NCBI GenBank assembly: GCA_013816855.1
Contig: JACDDT010000015.1
Coordinates: 1-42,586, forward strand
Reading direction: 5' to 3'
Length of the DNA stretch: 42,586 nucleotides
Source of the DNA: Gemmatimonadaceae bacterium
Lineage (GTDB): Bacteria; Gemmatimonadota; Gemmatimonadetes; Gemmatimonadales; Gemmatimonadaceae
Of the stretch, positions 2,391-34,461 are shown piece after piece (positions within the stretch are counted from its first letter, which is position 1; each line of letters opens with the position of its first letter). The notes beneath the pieces are model-generated. The model did no database searches. It worked only from the letters and a program-made list of their open reading frames with translations, and had not been told where the DNA came from. Made by a program: the position numbers and the translations under genes.

Positions 2391-3105
2391 GCGCGCCCTC
2401 GTAATCATTCCTACGTTCAACGAGCAGGGGAATGTCGCGCGGATCATCGATGCTGTCCTGTCTCAGGATGCATCGCTGGACGTTCTCATCGTGGATGACG
2501 CGTCTCCGGACGGCACGGGAGAGATCGCTGACTCAGTCGCCGCTTCGAATCCGCGCGTTAACGCGCTTCACCGGAGTGGGAAGCTCGGCCTCGGCACGGC
2601 CTACATCGCGGGTTTCCGTTGGGCGCTCGAGCGCGACTACGCCTTCGTCTTCGAGATGGATGCGGATTTCTCGCACAACCCCGACCGCCTGCAGAAGTTT
2701 CTCGAAACGATTCAGACAGCCGATCTGGTTCTCGGGTCGCGATACCAGAACGGCCACGTCAACGTCGTGAACTGGCCTATGAGCCGGCTTTTCCTGAGCT
2801 ACGCCGCGAATATCTACGCGCGAGGAGTAACCGGTTTGCCCGTGTTCGACGCGACCGGAGGCTTCAAATGCTTCCGTCGGAAAGTACTTGAGACGATCGA
2901 TCTTAACGCCGTGCACTCCAACGGCTACGCCTTCCAGATCGAGATGACATTCCGCGCCTGGAAAGCTGGTTTCCGCATCGTCGAGATCCCGATCGTTTTC
3001 GTGGACCGGACCTCGGGCGAGAGCAAGATGTCGAAGCGCATCGTACGGGAGGCTATTTGGATGGTTTGGCGTCTTCGTTGGGCGGCGTTTACCCGAAAAG
3101 TTTGA
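2383..3105 (+). CDS. Dpm1-like polyprenyl-phosphate glycosyltransferase (GT2)
   Basis: A GT-A fold glycosyltransferase of family 2, 240 residues, without C-terminal membrane helices, like soluble dolichol-phosphate mannose synthases. Visible motifs are IIPTFNEQGN at the N-terminus, VDDASPDGT, the metal-binding EMDADFSHNP, TGGFKCFRR, and the C-terminal GESKMS typical of polyprenol monophosphomannose synthases. It should move a hexose from a nucleotide sugar to a polyprenyl phosphate at the inner leaflet. The start codon is TTG, placed inside the 3' end of the YfhO-like gene, which implies translational coupling. The stop shares one base with the dapF start (TGATG). Together with the preceding membrane protein it looks like a donor-synthase plus transferase pair. 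The sugar cannot be read from the sequence. Confidence 0.85.
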   Translation: MPKRALVIIPTFNEQGNVARIIDAVLSQDASLDVLIVDDASPDGTGEIADSVAASNPRVNALHRSGKLGLGTAYIAGFRWALERDYAFVFEMDADFSHNPDRLQKFLETIQTADLVLGSRYQNGHVNVVNWPMSRLFLSYAANIYARGVTGLPVFDATGGFKCFRRKVLETIDLNAVHSNGYAFQIEMTFRAWKAGFRIVEIPIVFVDRTSGESKMSKRIVREAIWMVWRLRWAAFTRKV

Positions 3106-3914
3106 TGGGCCGCCGATTTTATAAGATGAGCGGCTCCGGAAACGATTTCATCGTCTTCGTTTCCAGCGACGGTCCGTTCGGCGAGTTGGAGACGGTGTCA
3201 CAGATTTCGGCAATGTGTGCTCGGGGTACCGGCATCGGCGCGGACGGCGCGGTTTTCATCGAGCCGGCCGGCAAGAACGTAGTGGCCATGCGGTACTACA
3301 ACGCAGATGGATCGCGAGCGACCCTCTGCGGAAACGCGAGCCTTTGCAGCACTCGGCTTTCCCTGGAGCTCGGGCTCGCGTCGGAGGATTTCACCCTCCG
3401 CACCGATGCCGGTGATCTTCCGGCGCGGATAAGAGAGGGCCTTCCAGAGATAGATCTCGAGCCCATCCAGGAGATTGATTCTGACGCCCCCAAGCTCACG
3501 AAGCAGGCGGGCGAGGATCGGATTGGCTTCGCACTGGTTGGCGTTCCTCACGTGGTCATTCTGGTGCCAGACCTGGAGACGATCGCGCTCCAGCAGCGCG
3601 GGTCAGAGCTGCGCCGGGACCCGAGCCTCCGCGACGGAGCCAATGTGAACTTTGTGACGAAGACCCCGTCCGGTTGGGCCTACCGCACCTACGAGCGCGG
3701 GGTGGAAGGGGAGACCCTGGCCTGCGGATCCGGGGCCGTCGCAACGGCGGTGCTGCTAGGACGGTGGGGCCAGTCGGGGGAAACCACGGTTCTTCAGACG
3801 AGATCAGGGCGGTCTCTGACGGTGCGTCTCACCAAGTACCAGGACCGAGTCATTCCCACGCTTCGCGGCGAGGGCCGACTCGTATTCGAAGGTGAAATCG
3901 GCGAGTTGGCCTGA
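3105..3914 (+). CDS. dapF: Diaminopimelate epimerase
   Basis: Interconverts LL- and meso-diaminopimelate for lysine and peptidoglycan synthesis in the cytoplasm. It has 269 residues when started at the ATG at 3105, which overlaps the previous stop as TGATG and gives the family-like N-terminus MGRRFYKMSGSGNDF. Both catalytic cysteines are visible: Cys75 in LCGNASLC and Cys207 in ACGSGA. Other family motifs are GIGADG, NADGS, GVPHVV, NVNFV and ERGVEGET. Some positions are unusual: the first motif reads SGSGND where HGLGND is common, and CGNGxRC has become CGNASLC. The substrate-contacting Asn and Gly are kept, so the enzyme is probably active. It is the last gene before the non-coding dif region. 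Confidence 0.88.
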   Translation: MGRRFYKMSGSGNDFIVFVSSDGPFGELETVSQISAMCARGTGIGADGAVFIEPAGKNVVAMRYYNADGSRATLCGNASLCSTRLSLELGLASEDFTLRTDAGDLPARIREGLPEIDLEPIQEIDSDAPKLTKQAGEDRIGFALVGVPHVVILVPDLETIALQQRGSELRRDPSLRDGANVNFVTKTPSGWAYRTYERGVEGETLACGSGAVATAVLLGRWGQSGETTVLQTRSGRSLTVRLTKYQDRVIPTLRGEGRLVFEGEIGELA

Positions 3915-4059
3915 CAGTCTGTCGCCACAAAGGGCTCTAACTGGCTCCTAGCGGTGATCTGGTGGAAAGCGCCTGCTCGGGTAGAACATACGGCACCATA
4001 AGAGCTTAGGTCATGGATGAGGAAGCCTAGTTCGTTATCCACAGTTATCCCCAGAGTGT
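3915..4059. other. Intergenic stretch after dapF, left of dif
   Basis: No gene seen. A short GACAG/CTGTC inverted repeat overlaps the dapF stop (about 3912-3922) but has no U-run, so it is not a convincing terminator. The DnaA-box pair annotated separately lies at its right end. Confidence 0.6.
4035..4053 (+). promoter_or_regulatory. Tandem DnaA-box-like sequences
   Basis: TTATCCACA at 4035-4043 is a perfect match to the bacterial DnaA-box consensus. One base later, TTATCCCCA at 4045-4053 matches 8 of 9. Looser relatives are GTATCCCCA at 4115-4123 and, on the other strand, 4099-4107. They abut the dif site, not dnaA or an obvious unwinding element, and both gene arms point towards them. An initiation origin is therefore unlikely. 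Titration or regulation by DnaA, or a relic of an integrated replicon, would fit. Confidence 0.45.
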
Positions 4060-4087
4060 AGTTTACATAACATATCTTATACGCATA
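4060..4087 (-). other. dif: Chromosome dimer resolution site (dif)
   Basis: A 28-bp XerC/XerD-type site. On the + strand it is an 11-bp arm AGTTTACATAA (4060-4070), a 6-bp centre CATATC (4071-4076) and a second 11-bp arm TTATACGCATA (4077-4087). The first arm is the exact complement of the XerD arm of Bacillus subtilis dif as I recall it, and matches 9 of 11 of the E. coli XerD arm. The second arm matches 8 of 11 of the E. coli XerC arm. Arm and spacer lengths are canonical. It lies in the only place in the window where the two gene arms converge, as expected of the replication terminus. Confidence 0.75.
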
Positions 4088-4129
4088 TATGGTCGGGCTG
4101 TGGAGATGCCTCACGTATCCCCATCCCTA

Positions 4130-4157
4130 GGTTTACATAAGGCAGGCTGACACGCAG
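4130..4157 (-). repeat. Second, degenerate dif-like repeat
   Basis: GTTTACATAA at 4131-4140 repeats the XerD arm of the dif site exactly, 70 bp downstream of the copy at 4061-4070. With a 7-bp spacer, the following TGACACGCAG (4148-4157) matches the XerC-side arm at 7 of 10 positions. It could be a half-site, a XerD accessory site, or the scar of an element that integrated through Xer. Confidence 0.4.
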
Positions 4158-4285: not shown

Positions 4286-4308
4286 AAAGCCCGCTCGAAG
4301 CGGGCTTT
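4286..4308 (-). terminator. Rho-independent terminator
   Basis: A perfect 9-bp stem AAAGCCCGC/GCGGGCTTT surrounds a 5-nt loop (4295-4299). Read on the - strand the stem is followed by a run of five T. It ends the minus-strand unit whose last gene stops at 4358. On the + strand the tail is only three T. Confidence 0.8.
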
Positions 4309-4357: not shown

Positions 4358-5029
4358 TTAAACCTTTGCGGGACTCGCCTCGAGCTCACCTATCCGCAGC
4401 TTAGCCTCGAGCGCGAACGGGCTCGCCGGGTCCTTAGCTAGGTCCTGCCAGATGGCCAACGCTTCAGCCCGCTTTCCTGCCCCCACGAGGGCCCGGGCCT
4501 GGTACGCTCGGTACCTGTTCTTGTCATTCGGGAACTTGGAAGTCTCTGCCGCTAAACGATATTGGTCAGCAGCGTTGACAAAGTCCTTCAGCTCTTCGTA
4601 GGCGTTCGCCTCGAGCATGTGGATTGAGGCCGAGAAGTCGTCATCCGACCCGACGGCATTATCTGCGGATTTGAGCTCCGCGATGCCTTCCTTGAATTTC
4701 TTCTGATCCAGATGCATCTGGGCCATGTAGATCCTGCCCTGAACCCCGGCCCGCGTCTTCGGATAGCGCTCAGTGAGCTTCTTGAAATCCGACATCGCGA
4801 GCTTGGCGTTCCCTACGGCAGCCTCCTGGCGGGCCTGGTAGTACGCCTTTTCAGCGCGCTCTGCCTTGAGTGACTCGGAGCGCTCGTAGAACCATCCTCC
4901 ACCAATGGCGATAACCACGGCTAGAGCTGCCCAGCCGAGTGCGGTCTTATGGAGTGCCACCCATTCGGCGAAGGACTCTTCGTCCGCCAGGCGCGGGGTT
5001 GGGGGTACGATCTGATTGTAGGGAGCCAT
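4358..5029 (-). CDS. TPR-containing single-pass membrane protein (YfgM-like)
   Basis: 223 residues: a short cytoplasmic N-terminus, one transmembrane helix at about 31-48 (LGWAALAVVIAIGGGWFY), then a helical periplasmic region built of TPR-like repeats (about 55-215). The repeats carry motifs such as AKLAMSDFKKLTERYPKT and AANAYEEL-type helices. The layout matches the YfgM/TPR_21 family, which in E. coli associates with SecYEG and periplasmic chaperones. No good Shine-Dalgarno precedes the ATG. It lies 20 bp after a small lipoprotein gene and is followed by a clear terminator, so it closes the minus-strand block. The family assignment is fair; the exact partner is inference. Confidence 0.7.
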   Translation of the reverse strand: MAPYNQIVPPTPRLADEESFAEWVALHKTALGWAALAVVIAIGGGWFYERSESLKAERAEKAYYQARQEAAVGNAKLAMSDFKKLTERYPKTRAGVQGRIYMAQMHLDQKKFKEGIAELKSADNAVGSDDDFSASIHMLEANAYEELKDFVNAADQYRLAAETSKFPNDKNRYRAYQARALVGAGKRAEALAIWQDLAKDPASPFALEAKLRIGELEASPAKV

Positions 5030-8930: not shown

Positions 8931-9925
8931 CGGTCGGCCTCCGCTCGCAGCTCTCTCGTCATTAGCTCTCCCATCGCCTCACGGGGATGCTGTCCGTCGA
9001 ACAACACCCGGTTAACGGCTTCCACGATTGGCATAGTGATTCCCTGTTTTGTCGCAAGCTCAAGCGCGCTCTTTGCCGCTACCACACCCTCGGCGACTGT
9101 CTCCTTTCCGCGAAGCACGTCGGCAAGCGCTTTCCCCTTCCCGACCTCGACACCTACTTCGCGGTTGCGACTCAAAGAACCCGTGCATGTGAGAACCAGG
9201 TCTCCGAGGCCGGCAAGACCAGCAAATGTAGACGCCTCTGCCCCGAGCGAAGTTCCGAGTCGAATCATCTCCGCGAGACCGCGGGTGATGAGCGCTGCAC
9301 GCGCGTTGAAGCCCAGACCCAATCCATCAGCGACACCCGTTGCAACGGCCATCACGTTCTTGAGGGCGCCGCCGAGCTCGACACCGGTTACGTCGCTGTG
9401 CGAGTAGGTGCGGAAATAAGGCGAGTTGAAAATCTGCTGCGTTGACTTGACCACACTCTCGTCAACAGAAGCGAGCACGACCGCGGTCGGCTGACAACGC
9501 ACGACTTCCACGGCGAAGCTCGGACCCGAAAGCGCGACGACTGGAGCTTGTGGGATCTCGCTGGCGACGACGTCGGTCATCAATGCGTGCGTTCCCTGCT
9601 CGATCCCTTTCGTCGCGACGACGACGGGCACGCCGGCGCCCACAGAAGGAGCAGCGGCCCGGGACATTTGGCGCAATACGATCGAAGGAGTCGCGAACAC
9701 GACGATCTGCGCACCTTGCACGACCGACGCGATATCAGACGACCCACGAATGCCCGGTGCGAGTTTATGTCCCTTCAGGAAACGAAGATTCTCGTTGTGC
9801 TTGGAAATCGATTTCGCGACATCCTGCTCGAACGCCCAAAGGGAAACGTCATGCCCGTTCCGCCGCAGCAGATCCGCGATGGCCGTTCCCCACGCTCCCC
9901 CGCCGACTACCGCGCACTTGATCAC
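8927..9925 (-). CDS. gpsA: Glycerol-3-phosphate dehydrogenase [NAD(P)+]
   Basis: Makes sn-glycerol-3-phosphate from dihydroxyacetone phosphate for phospholipid synthesis. 332 residues, the normal size. Rossmann motif GGGAWGTAIA at the N-terminus, VVATKGIEQGT, LSGPSFAVEV, ELGGALKNVMA with the catalytic lysine region, and GLAGLGDLVLTCTG. GTG start overlaps the plsY stop (GTGA). Adjacent to plsY, which uses its product, so the two make a lysophosphatidate-forming pair. Confidence 0.96.
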   Translation of the reverse strand: MIKCAVVGGGAWGTAIADLLRRNGHDVSLWAFEQDVAKSISKHNENLRFLKGHKLAPGIRGSSDIASVVQGAQIVVFATPSIVLRQMSRAAAPSVGAGVPVVVATKGIEQGTHALMTDVVASEIPQAPVVALSGPSFAVEVVRCQPTAVVLASVDESVVKSTQQIFNSPYFRTYSHSDVTGVELGGALKNVMAVATGVADGLGLGFNARAALITRGLAEMIRLGTSLGAEASTFAGLAGLGDLVLTCTGSLSRNREVGVEVGKGKALADVLRGKETVAEGVVAAKSALELATKQGITMPIVEAVNRVLFDGQHPREAMGELMTRELRAEADR

Positions 9926-16709: not shown

Positions 16710-18232
16710 AACAGTTGCTCTGCGTGCTCTGATGCTTGCTCGAGCATCGCTTCCTGGAGCTTCCTCCCGTAACGGGCGAGGAAAGGCACAAAGCTGAGCG
16801 TGCGCTCTTGCGGGCGGCCCAGGGGAAATAGCGATCCGCGTGCCGTTGCCACGTCGTGCATCAGCTCCGCGTTTCTGCGCTTCCACGCGGCCACCACTCG
16901 CCTCTCGAAACGATCGACCCGATGAGCAAGGTTGCGGCGAAGTCCCTCAACCACTGCCTTGGTTGCGAGCGAATCCCCTTCCGAAGACGCTGCTGACAAC
17001 GCGGCCGCGCGTTCCTGAATCGAATCCCTCATCGCAGAGATCTCGCGGCTCAGCGGCTCGGGAAGCTGCTCACGTGCCAATCTTGCCTCGGCGGCGTGCG
17101 GATCCTGAAGCTCCGCCGCAGTCATTCCCGTCTTGTCGAGAATCCTTCGCACGTGCGGCTCGACAATCGTGCACGACCATCGCGGCACGATGAGCGGACG
17201 CGGAACACCGAGTGCATCGGCTATCGGAGCCAGCTGCGCAAAGTACGCGATCTCGGCAGGGCCACCGACGTACGCGACGGTCGGAAGAATCTGCCTCTCG
17301 ACAATCGGGCGGAGGAGAACATTCGGCCCGAGGTCGGATCCAGGTGGGATGTCTCGCGCTCCGCGCTTGCGTGGAATGCGCTTTCGACCAGTTGGCGTTT
17401 TCTCGAACACCAGCGAAAGCCCGGCCACATCCTGCACCTGAAGCTCGAAACCATCCTTCTCGATTGAAGCGTTGTTCGCAGCGATGGCCTGCGCGATGTC
17501 CTCGCCTTTGCCGAGTGCGGTCTTGAGTAGTGGAAGTGATGTCTCGCGCACGGCTTCGTGCGACGCATCGAGCACAGAAATGCCGAGCGGCGCAAACAAC
17601 TCCCGGAGAAGTCCAACGTACGCCCCGCCGACAGTCGCTGATGAGCCGTACATGCGCGCGACGAGCGCGGTGATCGGGTCTGCCGCGGAGCCGGACGCCG
17701 CATTCACCTCGGCGAGAAGCGCGGCGACATCTCCAAGCTTCATTTCGGACATCGACGGCCCGGCTGGCTCAGCGGCTTCCAAAACGAGCTCGCGTGCCCC
17801 TCCCGGAAACGAAACGGCAACTTTGCTTGCTTCCCGGAAATCGGTGTCATCAGTCGCAGCCCAGAACACTGGAGCTGTTGGCACACCGGTCAGTTTCTCG
17901 ATCGCATTCGCAAGCGCGAGTGCGCTGAGCGCTTTCGAAAGAGTGTAGATGGGCCCGCCGAAGAGGCCGGGCTGCTGCCCCGTCGTCACAACGACACCCT
18001 TCCCGCCCGCTACCCGCGAAAGCCTGGACTCGGCTTCGCCACCGGTCTGAATCGCGGGACGAAGACGCTCGAGCCAGTCGCTTCCCACGGAAGCGTTGAC
18101 GGCATTCGCCCGTTCGACCCAACCAGCTTTGCCGCTCGGGCGCTGCAGATAACGAGGGTCGGCTTGGCCCGACATCGCCGCGTGAGCCACTCCGGGGAGC
18201 GCGAGCGGCTGGGAAATAATTTCCGGCGTCAT
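16706..18232 (-). CDS. bshC: Bacillithiol biosynthesis cysteine-adding enzyme BshC
   Basis: Thought to add cysteine to glucosaminyl-malate, the last step of bacillithiol synthesis. 508 residues from ATG 18232, chosen for its ATGA overlap with the methyltransferase gene. The core motif TTGQQPGLFGGPIYTLSK and the VFWAATDDTDF segment identify the family, and a helical C-terminal region (about 370-470) is typical. bshA and bshB are not in the window. Its coupling to a SAM methyltransferase is of interest because N-methyl-bacillithiol is known from green sulfur bacteria. Confidence 0.9.
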   Translation of the reverse strand: MTPEIISQPLALPGVAHAAMSGQADPRYLQRPSGKAGWVERANAVNASVGSDWLERLRPAIQTGGEAESRLSRVAGGKGVVVTTGQQPGLFGGPIYTLSKALSALALANAIEKLTGVPTAPVFWAATDDTDFREASKVAVSFPGGARELVLEAAEPAGPSMSEMKLGDVAALLAEVNAASGSAADPITALVARMYGSSATVGGAYVGLLRELFAPLGISVLDASHEAVRETSLPLLKTALGKGEDIAQAIAANNASIEKDGFELQVQDVAGLSLVFEKTPTGRKRIPRKRGARDIPPGSDLGPNVLLRPIVERQILPTVAYVGGPAEIAYFAQLAPIADALGVPRPLIVPRWSCTIVEPHVRRILDKTGMTAAELQDPHAAEARLAREQLPEPLSREISAMRDSIQERAAALSAASSEGDSLATKAVVEGLRRNLAHRVDRFERRVVAAWKRRNAELMHDVATARGSLFPLGRPQERTLSFVPFLARYGRKLQEAMLEQASEHAEQLL

Positions 18233-26629: not shown

Positions 26630-27699
26630 TTCTCGGGATGTTCTTCGAGAAGCTTTTCGATCCGGCGCATCATCCCCGCCAGCTTGAAGAGAGCGCCCGA
26701 CGCGCGAAGTGATTCACGGTGCGGCCGCGCGGGGTAGCCCGACCACGTTTCCCCCGGCGGCACATCGCCAAAGACTCCGGACTGTCCCGCGATCTTCGCA
26801 CCTGCGCCGATTGTGATGTGACCGGCGAACCCCGCTTGTCCGCCGATGACGCATCCGTCTTCGATAACGACTGAGCCGGCGACCCCAACTTGCGCGACAA
26901 GGAGGCACAGTCTCCCCACGCGAACGTTGTGCGCGATCTGCACGAGATTGTCGATTTTGGTGCCCGCGCCAATGACTGTGTCGTCGATGCTTCCACGATC
27001 GATCGTCGTATTCGCTCCGATCTCGACGTCGTCCCCGATGATACATCGCCCCACATGCGGAATCTTGGCGTGCGCTCCGCCGCTGAAGACGTATCCGAAT
27101 CCATCCGACCCGAGCCGCGTTCCGGAGTGGATAGTGACGCGCTCACCAAGCGTTACGCCCGGGTACAAGGTGGCGTGCGGATAGAGATTGGAGCGCGCCC
27201 CGATCACTGCCCCCGCTCCGACAACGCAGTGTGATCCAATGACGCAGTCATCGCCGACGGCAGCGCCATCCCCGATGACAGCATAATCGCCGATCGAGAC
27301 CCGCGCCCCGAATGACGCCCCCTTCCCGATGCGCGCGGTAGGCGCAATACCCGGCTCCGCCCGAGGCTGCGCGTACAGCTTTGGCAGCACAGCGAGCATC
27401 TTCTCCATGGGCTTCTCGACGATTATTCGAGCGCGCGCTTTACTCAGTGCGCTTCTAAACTCGGGGTCGACAAGGACGACTCCCGCCGCTGACGACGCGA
27501 ATGACTCGGAATACTTCGCGTTACCGATGAAACTGAGATCATTCGCTTCGGCGCGGTCCAGCGGTGCAACCGCCGTTACGGTCGCGCTGCCGTCTCCGAT
27601 CAGCTCTCCGCCCACTAGGGCGGCAATAGCCTCAGCGGTGATAGTGCAAGCACCATCACCGCTGAGATCATTCGAGCCGGACGAAGTGGATGTCCTCAC
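26626..27699 (-). CDS. lpxD: UDP-3-O-acylglucosamine N-acyltransferase
   Basis: Third step of lipid A synthesis. 357 residues: an N-terminal uridine-binding domain (about 20-110, [10 protein letters not shown]), a hexapeptide-repeat beta-helix (about 115-310) and a C-terminal helix. Marks are [25 protein letters not shown], and IAHNVRVG with the catalytic histidine region. GTG start overlaps the skp stop (GTGA) and the stop overlaps the lpxC-fabZ start (ATGA). Confidence 0.95.
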
Positions 27700-30838: not shown

Positions 30839-33334
30839 TCAGACGCGAGGAGTCGCGCTCAAAACCCGGAACTCGAGGCGTTCCCCCTCTGGCGCAAGAT
30901 CGACTTCGATCTCGTCGCCGGCGGAGAATTCCGCGAGAAGAATCTTCTCAGAGAGCGGATCCTCGATGTATCGCTGGATCGCGCGCTTCAAAGGTCTGGC
31001 ACCGAACTTCTCGTCGTAGCCGTGCTTCACGAGGAACGTCGACGCGGCGTCGGTCAGCTTGATGGAGAGATCCTCCTCCCCGAGTCGCTTCTGCACCGCC
31101 TTCATAAGAATCCCCACGATCTGGGCGATATTCGCTTCCGAGAGCGGATGGAACACGATGACGTCGTCGAGGCGATTCAGGAATTCCGGATTGAAGACGT
31201 GGTTCATCTCTTCCTTTACCTTCTCCGACATTCTCTCGAAGCTGCTCCGCTCGTCCGGAGCGTGGAACCCGAGCTGCTTTCCCTTCGTGATCTCGCGCGC
31301 GCCGACGTTCGACGTCATGATGACGACGGTGTTCTTGAAGTCGATCACCCGGCCGTAGTTGTCAGTGAGGTGACCTTCGTCGAGAACCTGAAGCAGAATG
31401 TTGAACACATCGGGGTGCGCCTTCTCGATCTCATCGAGCAGCACAACGCTGTACGGCTTACGGCGTACGGCCTTGGTGAGCGTTCCAGAATCCTCGTAGC
31501 CGACATATCCAGGCGGCGCGCCGATGAGTCGCGACACGGAGAACTTCTCCATGTACTCGCTCATGTCCACGCGGATGAGTGCCGTTGGATCGGCAAAAAG
31601 GAACTTCGCTAGCGAGCGCGCGAGCTCCGTCTTGCCCACACCGGTCGGCCCCGAGAAGATGAACGAGCCGATCGGCCGGTTCGGATCTTTCAGCCCCGCG
31701 CGACTGCGGCGGATGGACCGCGACAACGCCTTGATCGCTTCTTCCTGGGCGACGACGGATGCGTGAAGCTCGTCTTCCATTCTGAGAAGGCGTGCGGTCT
31801 CCGCTTCCTGAAGCCGCATCACGGGAATGCCGGTCCAACGGGAGACGATGAAAGAGACTTCCTCTTCGCCAAGAACCGGACGATGCGACTGCCGGTGCTG
31901 CTCCCACTCTTCCTGTCTGCGGCGAATGTCGCCCTGAAGCTCGCGCTCACGATCGCGCAGTGACGCCGCGCGCTCGAAGTTCTGATCGCGCACCGCCGCT
32001 TCCTTCTCGATGTTCACACCATCGAGCTGCGCTTTCAGCTCCGTCACCTGCGGCGGCGGAGCCTGAGTGGCTAGACGGGCGCGCGCTCCCGCTTCGTCAA
32101 TGACATCGATCGCCTTGTCTGGCAGGAAGCGGTCGGTGATGTAGCGCTCCGACATCTTCGCCGCCGACACGAGCGTCGCATCGGGAATGGTGACGCGATG
32201 GTGATCCTCGTACTTCGAGCGAAGACCCTTGAGGATCTCCACGGTCTCTTCGACCGAAGGCGGCTCAACGATTACCGTCTGGAAGCGGCGCTCGAGAGCC
32301 CCGTCCTTCTCGATGTACTTGCGGTACTCGTTCAGCGTCGAAGCACCGACGCACTGAAGCTCACCGCGAGCGAGCGCCGGCTTGAGCATGTTGCTCGCGT
32401 CGATGGCGCCTTCGGCAGCCCCCGCTCCGACGAGCGTGTGCAGCTCGTCGATGAAGAGGATGATGTTCTTGTTTTGAGCGATCTCGTTCATAACCGCTTT
32501 GAGGCGCTCCTCGAACTGCCCGCGGTACTTCGTGCCGGCAATGACGGCCGCCATGTCGAGCGAGAGAACGCGATTGTCGCGAAGTGAATCCGGGCACTCA
32601 CCATTGGCGATGAGCTGCGCCAGACCTTCCACGATCGCGGTCTTGCCAACTCCCGGCTCGCCGATGAGAACGGGATTGTTCTTCTTGCGCCGGGTGAGGA
32701 TCTCCATCACGCGCTCGATCTCCTTCGCTCTGCCGATGGTCGGATCGAGCTGGTTCTCGGCGGCGAGCTGCGTGAGGTCGCGGCAGAAATGATCGAGAGC
32801 GGGAGTCTTTGATTTTTTCTCGCCCTTCCCCGGAATCGTCTGCGAAGTTCCGGGTGCGCCGGCCGTTGCGGCAGCTCCGGCCTGCGGCATCTCCGTGCCG
32901 AGCAGCCGGAGCGTCTCTACCCTGGCCGCGTCGAGGTTGACGCCCGCGTCGGAGAGGACCTGCGCGGCGATTCCCTTCTCTTCGCGCAGCAACCCGAGCA
33001 GCAAGTGCTCGGTGCCGACGTAGCCGTGGCTCAGATCGCGGGCTTCGCCCATGGCAAGCTCGAGCACTTTTTTGGCGCGCGAGGTGTAGGGCAAATCCGG
33101 TCCGGTCGCGGCAGCGGCTTTTCCTTTTTTCACCGTCTCTTCGATCTTCTGTTGAATCTCGTCGAGATCCACGCTCAGATTCTGAAGCACCGCGGCGGCC
33201 ACACCCTCGCCCTCGCGGATGAGCCCAAGCAGGATGTGCTCGGTGCCAACGTACTCATGCTTGAGCCGTTGAGCTTCCTCTCGCGCCATCGCGAGAACCT
33301 TTCGGACCCGCTCAGTGAAGTTATACCCGTTCAT
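30839..33334 (-). CDS. clpC: AAA+ unfoldase ClpC
   Basis: Hsp100 unfoldase that feeds proteins to ClpP. 831 residues: double Clp-N domain (about 1-145), first AAA+ module with GEPGVGKTA (Walker A), a middle domain with a UVR motif (about 420-460), second AAA+ module with GPTGVGKTE, and a ClpB-D2-small C-terminal domain. The middle domain marks it as ClpC. A clear Shine-Dalgarno (GGAGAAGG, 33339-33346) precedes ATG 33334. It follows mcsA and mcsB, whose products mark and deliver substrates. Confidence 0.95.
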
Positions 33335-33387: not shown

Positions 33388-34461
33388 TCAGACTGTCTCC
33401 GCAGCGAGTGTCTCCCGCACGTACCGGGCTCTTGCGACATTCGCCTCGATCTCGGTCAGCGCTCGTCCTTCCGAGCGTCCGAGATGCGCCGACTGACTGA
33501 AGATGAGGAGCTTGTTGAGGGTATATACACTGAGACCGCCGATCAGTTTCAAACCAACCGCGAGCCGCACGCCGCTCAGATAGTTCATCGCTTCGTCGAA
33601 GCTGAGACTGCGGGCGTAGCGCAGAGTGCCGAACGCGCGCCATAGCTTGTCTTCAATAATATAACCGGCGTCCCGCAATAACACTCGCCTGGATTCTTCC
33701 TCACGCTCGATGATGTGATGGACTACTCGCACCAGATAATCGAGAAGCTCGCCCTCGGAGCGGCCGAGTGTCGTTTGATTGGAGATCTGAAAGAAGTTTC
33801 CGACGACTTCGCTTCCCTCCCCATAGAGTCCGCGATACGTGAGGCCGACGGACTGTAGTCCGGCGAGAACCTTCCCGATCTCCTTCGTGAGTACGAGTCC
33901 GGGGAGATGAATTAGCACCGACGCCCTGAGGCCGGTTCCTGCATTCGTCGGGCACGCGGTCAGATACCCGAACTCCTGGTGGAAGGCGTACGGCAGGCGA
34001 GCTCCGAGCGCGTTGTCGAGCTCCTCCACTCGGGCAAATGCATCGGCGACGGCGAACCCCGAGTGGAGTGCCTGCAGCCGCAGATGGTCCTCTTCGTTGA
34101 TCATGACGCCGAATCGTCCGGAGAGATAAAGCGCCGCCCCGCTCCTCACAGGCACGTCGTTGAGCCCCGCGAGCTCCTTGCTGGCGAGGTGCCGCTCGTG
34201 CAGCAGAAGTCGGTCTTCCGCCGGCAGCTCATCGACGCGAAGGATTACGCCGTCGCTCAGCATCGGCATGTCCGCGAGCGCCTCCCTCGCCTGCGTGAGG
34301 ATCCGCAGCCGCTCACCGTCACGTGCTCTGCCCGAGAACGCATAACCTTCGAGATTCCTCGCGAGGCGAACCCTCGTCGAGATGACGATGTCGGAATGTT
34401 CGCCCGACGCGTCGAGCCACCCAGTGCCGCCATCGGGAAGGAGGGATAGGTCGAGCGTCAT
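33388..34461 (-). CDS. mcsB: Protein arginine kinase McsB
   Basis: Phosphorylates arginine residues, a degradation tag recognised by ClpC-ClpP in Bacillus. 357 residues with the ATP:guanido phosphotransferase catalytic domain: ISTRVRLARNLEGY, MINEEDHLRLQ, CPTNAGTGLRASV and NQTTLGRSEGE. The C-terminal domain (about 260-357) is typical of McsB and separates it from creatine kinases. ATGA overlap with mcsA. 53 bp before clpC. Confidence 0.94.
   Translation of the reverse strand: MTLDLSLLPDGGTGWLDASGEHSDIVISTRVRLARNLEGYAFSGRARDGERLRILTQAREALADMPMLSDGVILRVDELPAEDRLLLHERHLASKELAGLNDVPVRSGAALYLSGRFGVMINEEDHLRLQALHSGFAVADAFARVEELDNALGARLPYAFHQEFGYLTACPTNAGTGLRASVLIHLPGLVLTKEIGKVLAGLQSVGLTYRGLYGEGSEVVGNFFQISNQTTLGRSEGELLDYLVRVVHHIIEREEESRRVLLRDAGYIIEDKLWRAFGTLRYARSLSFDEAMNYLSGVRLAVGLKLIGGLSVYTLNKLLIFSQSAHLGRSEGRALTEIEANVARARYVRETLAAETV

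Follow-up and report, generated by a model that had tools for sequence, protein, structure and literature searches.

A chromosomal dif site of Gemmatimonadales accompanied by DnaA-box-like sequences beside its XerD arm

The DNA analysed here (the window, a stretch of 42,586 bp from contig JACDDT010000015.1 of a Gemmatimonadaceae bacterium) contains, at positions 4060-4087, the chromosomal dif site of this bacterium, located at the replication terminus. Immediately outside the 28 bp of the site, on the XerD side, a second block is conserved across the order, and we consider that the whole is probably a composite locus, in which a dif served by XerC/XerD and by a KOPS-steered FtsK is combined with DnaA-box-like 9-mers, DnaA itself being, on sequence grounds, their most likely ligand. 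One would not expect docking sequences of the initiator type at the point where replication finishes. The open-access literature yielded no mention of DnaA boxes at dif, nor any description of a chromosomal dif whose XerD arm has DnaA-box-like sites at a spacing precise to the base.

Identification of the dif site

Read from the sequence, positions 4060-4087 are AGTTTACATAA-CATATC-TTATACGCATA, that is, 28 bp in the 11-6-11 layout, with the conventional XerC-to-XerD orientation on the minus strand. The XerD arm (4060-4070, minus strand; AGTTTACATAA on the plus strand) is the exact reverse complement of TTATGTAAACT, the XerD arm of B. subtilis. It is followed by the 6-bp central region (4071-4076) and by the XerC arm (4077-4087, minus strand; TTATACGCATA on the plus strand), the reverse complement of which, TATGCGTATAA, agrees at 8 of 11 positions with the E. 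coli XerC arm GGTGCGCATAA, as read from the dif sequence of MG1655. Both resemblances had been put forward in an initial annotation of this DNA, and both proved correct. When 75 non-redundant dif sites were aligned, the arms turned out to be near-invariant, and the centre variable between genomes.

As the initial annotation had indicated, the site is found in a gap between convergent genes. This gap, of 443 bp, separates dapF (3057-3914, plus strand, Pfam PF01678), the last gene of the left arm, from a gene encoding a TPR protein (4358-5029, minus strand, Pfam PF09976), the first gene of the right arm. The main open reading frames left of dif are three in number and all on the plus strand, and those to the right are all on the minus strand. 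The description of two gene arms converging on the site, with three plus-strand genes on the left, is therefore retained, while the 'about 40' minus-strand genes announced on the right were slightly too many, since roughly 33 to 35 were counted. Between the two convergent genes a hairpin can also be read from the sequence, AAAGCCCGC-tcgaa-GCGGGCTTT (4286-4308), which is likely to act as a shared bidirectional terminator.

The genome to which the window belongs is a Gemmatimonadaceae draft of 2.47 Mb, 95% complete and distributed over 170 contigs. The 28-mer is unique in this draft, even when three mismatches are allowed, which answers the question of copy number that had been raised with the first description of the site. 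A degenerate pattern of the core was then used on 119 relatives: it was present in single copy in almost every matching genome of the same family, and the reversed pattern, used as a control, gave no match in the 119. The same kind of search on the GTDB collection returned 42 stretches, mostly from Gemmatimonadaceae and other Gemmatimonadota. Two copies of dif were encountered in six draft genomes (G072, G117, G216, G218, G310 and G317), several of them at contig ends; assembly duplication or mixed bins are the likely origin, a real second copy being possible. The same core was also borne by 11 viral contigs (L301-L311), possibly those of Xer-using phages.

Position at the replication terminus

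Cumulative GC skew within the window peaks at 4108, a position obtained with only 4 kb of sequence to the left of dif. Beyond the window, the skew was taken from relatives, the window's own chromosome being in 170 contigs. On contiguous sequence, the cumulative maximum was at 461,683 in G015, where dif is at 461,711 (28 bp away), at 92,077 in G013 for a dif at 92,182 (105 bp), and at 1,930,413 in G039 for a dif at 1,930,287 (126 bp). G039 is a complete relative of 4,636,964 bp, and when its skew was computed over 60 sampled stretches, the peak fell in the 20-kb stretch containing dif. These three relatives thus carry the site at their skew maximum, as had been anticipated. How dif is oriented with respect to the replichores was dropped as an argument, since reversing the strand gives a symmetrical skew picture.

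The distribution of KOPS leads to the same point. An ab initio search for strand-polarised 8-mers in G039 ranked GGGCAGGG first, with 75 occurrences on the leading strand versus 6 on the lagging strand; the octamer corresponds to one form of the KOPS known from E. coli, GGGNAGGG. All six GGGNAGGG octamers of the window aim at dif. To its left, one is found on the plus strand (814-821) and none on the minus strand; to its right, none is on the plus strand and five are on the minus strand (9135-9142, 17997-18004, 27320-27327, 32823-32830 and 33815-33822). A comparable flip takes place at dif in G015 (13/0 and 0/5) and in G013 (13/1 and 0/4). As for the proteins, the window's genome encodes a XerD above the cut-off, a second recombinase whose best match is XerC, at 10 bits below the XerC cut-off, and an FtsK with a gamma domain of the KOPS type; the presence of xerD and of an xerC-type gene, on which the first interpretation depended, is therefore verified. 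In the established mechanism, KOPS aim at dif and FtsK gamma acts on XerD (PMC5052618). Skew maxima at dif in relatives, converging KOPS and the presence of Xer and FtsK gamma genes all support the assignment of the site as a dif at the terminus.

The initial annotation knew of no described dif site for this kind of organism. For the phylum this is wrong: using an iterated HMM, Kono et al. predicted in 2011 a dif in the one Gemmatimonadetes genome of their set (1/1; PMC3025954), that is, in the same phylum and for the same kind of site. The parts of its main text that were consulted deal with the site and with how it relates to GC skew, and report no flanking element. Because of this earlier prediction, the dif of the window can be regarded, taken by itself, as a sound and ordinary new member. 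In common with the E. coli and B. subtilis sites it has 28 bp in an 11-6-11 arrangement, a single copy, a shift of GC skew, convergent KOPS, and XerC, XerD and FtsK gamma as partners. For this phylum, most of which is known from draft genomes, it also offers a ready way of marking the terminus and a definition of KOPS.

A phase-locked pair of DnaA-box-like 9-mers

The initial annotation had recognised the site and overlooked what lies beside it. In the alignment of the 75 sites, a second conserved block, TTNTCCACA-N-TTNTCCAC, was visible beyond the limits of the 28-bp site, next to the XerD arm; going from the outside in, it is followed by about seven unconserved bases, then TA, then the XerD arm. 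This tandem agrees with the DnaA-box consensus. In the window, the first 9-mer, TTATCCACA (4035-4043, plus strand), fits the consensus perfectly and is phase-locked to the XerD arm; the second, TTATCCCCA (4045-4053, plus strand), comes 10 bp after the first and has one mismatch to the consensus. The two are arranged head-to-tail and, measured centre to centre, lie approximately 26 and 16 bp away from the XerD arm. A second box is present at -17 to -15 in 45 of the 75 sites and is degenerate in many genomes, that of the window included. The dominant box variants in the alignment are TTCTCCACA and TTTCCCACA.

Of the 298 genomes searched in the phylum, 128 contained a match to a pattern combining flank and dif, and none a match to its reversed version. 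The flank was present in 83 of the 92 strict-dif genomes of the window's order (families f1 to f3). It was present in 4 of 8 genomes in family f6, 1 of 5 in f4 and 0 of 22 in f5. Since the flank is not universal in the phylum, dif must be able to work without it.

It could be argued that the window holds an ordinary dif and nothing else, the flanking 9-mers being a functionless product of chance or a phylogenetic residue. Position, skew and KOPS are indeed accounted for by dif itself, and many members of the phylum, as well as the E. coli dif (MG1655), are devoid of the flanking pair. The statistics of the flank nevertheless make this explanation very improbable. The sequence TTNYCCACA starts at -26 or -25 in 57 of the 75 sites, compared to 0.003 expected from shuffled flanks, and its only other starts in the searched flank are -16 and -15, which are positions of the second box. 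Moreover, the sequence separating box and arm is not conserved, yet among the matches listed, which span genera and families, the spacing from CCACA to TTWACATAA takes two values only, 17 or 18 (total lengths of 41 or 42, 22 of which were re-measured), when nine values, from 12 to 20, were allowed. The flank was also found at none of the 11 matches to the same dif pattern outside Gemmatimonadota, and at none of the 11 viral cores, whose flanks were judged by inspection.

The pair might alternatively be a KOPS, or some other loading site for FtsK gamma, joined to dif. In favour of this, FtsK acts from the side of XerD, the one on which the pair is placed, and the complement of the pair contains a G-rich octamer, GTGGANAA. 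However, the KOPS of this group is GGGNAGGG, to which GTGGANAA does not match, and GTGGANAA shows no leading-strand polarity (75 versus 72 occurrences in G039) and reads away from dif. We therefore rejected the flank as a KOPS, and a loading site of this kind now seems scarcely credible.

DnaA as candidate ligand

If the flank is a binding site, the other places where it is found may tell which protein it binds. The exact tandem had 28 matches in 70 genomes of the family (none when reversed): 18 at dif, 9 downstream of parB and 1 near recA. On the parB side, the tandem is located in the gap before a gene for a Bmp-type lipoprotein or, past the neighbouring bactofilin gene, before nif3. In addition, 11 of 12 genomes have a single TTTTCCACA or TTATCCACA upstream of dnaA. 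Seven copies of the 9-mer were counted over 400 kb surrounding the origin region of G033, and of these four are at dnaA and three downstream of parB. The DnaA of the window's genome has a canonical domain IV; its alignment with 1j1v, the structure of E. coli DnaA in complex with a DnaA box, shows the recognition motif GGRDH[ST]TV[IL]H to be kept (GGRDHSTVIH versus GGRDHTTVLH). The recurrence of the tandem beside parB, the presence of the 9-mer in dnaA promoters and the canonical domain IV make DnaA the best candidate; it is most likely the ligand of the dif flank, as predicted from sequence, and another factor of the same specificity is less likely.

Such a factor could be a protein of the order, either organising the terminus or accessory to Xer, with a specificity for TTNTCCACA. 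Its strict spacing from the core recalls the accessory sites of plasmid Xer systems, which are bound by ArgR, PepA or ArcA, and the dominant variants TTCTCCACA and TTTCCCACA are not the strongest boxes of the E. coli type. Against it speak the dnaA promoter and the gap downstream of parB, both of which have the motif as well, and the absence of the one familiar factor with 10-bp GTGG repeats, MraZ: mraZ was detected in 7 control genomes and in 0 of 12 Gemmatimonadota genomes, and the flank was accordingly rejected as a MraZ box. We consider a factor other than DnaA unlikely.

Even with DnaA as the ligand, the boxes might have no role in Xer recombination and form a locus regulating DnaA, of the datA, DARS or titration kind, that happens to be sited at the terminus. 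Their sequence is DnaA-box-like, and a terminus position would give a timing signal for the last-replicated region. However, there are two boxes only, with no larger cluster within 80-95 bp, and titration alone falls short because it leaves unexplained a spacing to the XerD arm that is precise to the base through unconserved sequence. A purely regulatory locus thus appears improbable, and we retain the composite of dif and DnaA-box-like sites as the preferred reading.

We infer that the gap downstream of parB is a candidate oriC of Gemmatimonadaceae, apart from dnaA. The two are 111 kb apart in G033. The local minimum of the GC skew, which is noisy, agrees with this in some genomes and disagrees in others: it was found within 150 bp of this gap in G047 and 22 kb off in G033. 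Two or three DnaA-box-like 9-mers are contained in the parB gap of several loci (around 1501-1518 in L220; also L213, L214, L215, L216, L226, L227, L232 and L235), and no clear parB-proximal tandem was seen in the window's own genus. Further single boxes are scattered over G039, at a density close to that expected by chance. This genome also carries, far from dnaA, parB and dif, an isolated divergent pair, TTATCCACA / TTTTCCACA, at 1,630,566 and 1,630,619, 53 bp apart (L150). A separate observation concerns a protein of about 590 amino acids with two DnaA-type AAA+ domains and no match to the DnaA DNA-binding domain. It is encoded in G039 (L109, 1,693,232-1,694,875), G064, G026, G031, G028 and G077 (L106, L107, L108, L110 and L111 being the other loci), and was not found in the window's genome.

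A possible link with dimer resolution

By analogy with the known dif/XerCD/FtsK system, XerC and XerD, activated by an FtsK that the KOPS octamers steer to dif, would resolve sister-chromosome dimers at 4060-4087. DnaA bound to the two boxes would sit next to XerD, and the fixed spacing suggests a bound protein that touches XerD or sets its position, or else one that holds FtsK in check on the side of XerD. Several outcomes can be envisaged: DnaA might stabilise XerD on its arm, it might hold the FtsK arriving from the XerD side, or it might block synapsis until it is released or its nucleotide state changes. In each case, dimer resolution would be tied to the state of the replication initiator. 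We put forward tentatively, and as somewhat less than an even prospect, that in Gemmatimonadales DnaA docks at a fixed position beside XerD at dif and has a part in dimer resolution, or acts as its gate; a single protein would then mark where the chromosome cycle begins and where it ends. If DnaA does bind at dif, it is common to initiation and to the final step of segregation, at opposite ends of the chromosome. How initiation and segregation are coordinated is a long-standing question, which would then become testable by the deletion of one motif in the cultured Gemmatimonas aurantiaca.

Relation to known systems

Unlike the E. coli dif, the Gemmatimonadota site has a pair of DnaA-box-like 9-mers phase-locked beside its XerD arm. 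The plasmid Xer sites cer and psi have accessory sequences for ArgR, PepA or ArcA, on the XerC side and over some 100 bp or more. The resemblance is that sequence-specific sites for a protein that has another job are set at a constant distance from the Xer core; the difference is that here two 9-mers are involved, next to the XerD arm of a dif that is chromosomal. DnaA-box sequences outside oriC are also known from the E. coli loci datA, DARS1 and DARS2, which are far from dif and consist of larger clusters with IHF/Fis sites, whereas in the present case two boxes adjoin dif.

An additional XerD-arm copy in the window

The window has one more copy of the XerD arm, GGTTTACATAA, at 4130-4140, 70 bp from dif. 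Clusters of XerD half-sites, of the type that unloads SMC in B. subtilis, were considered and are unsupported, as an extra copy was seen in the window alone and in no other locus among the 78.7 kb of loci examined. The additional arm is preceded at -16 by GTATCCCCA, which matches the position of the second box of the main site, and 7 bp after it comes TGACACGCAGA, which shares 8 of 11 positions with the local XerC arm (counted by eye). The segment 4115-4158 may represent a duplicate, now decayed, either of the dif module or of some element that uses Xer.
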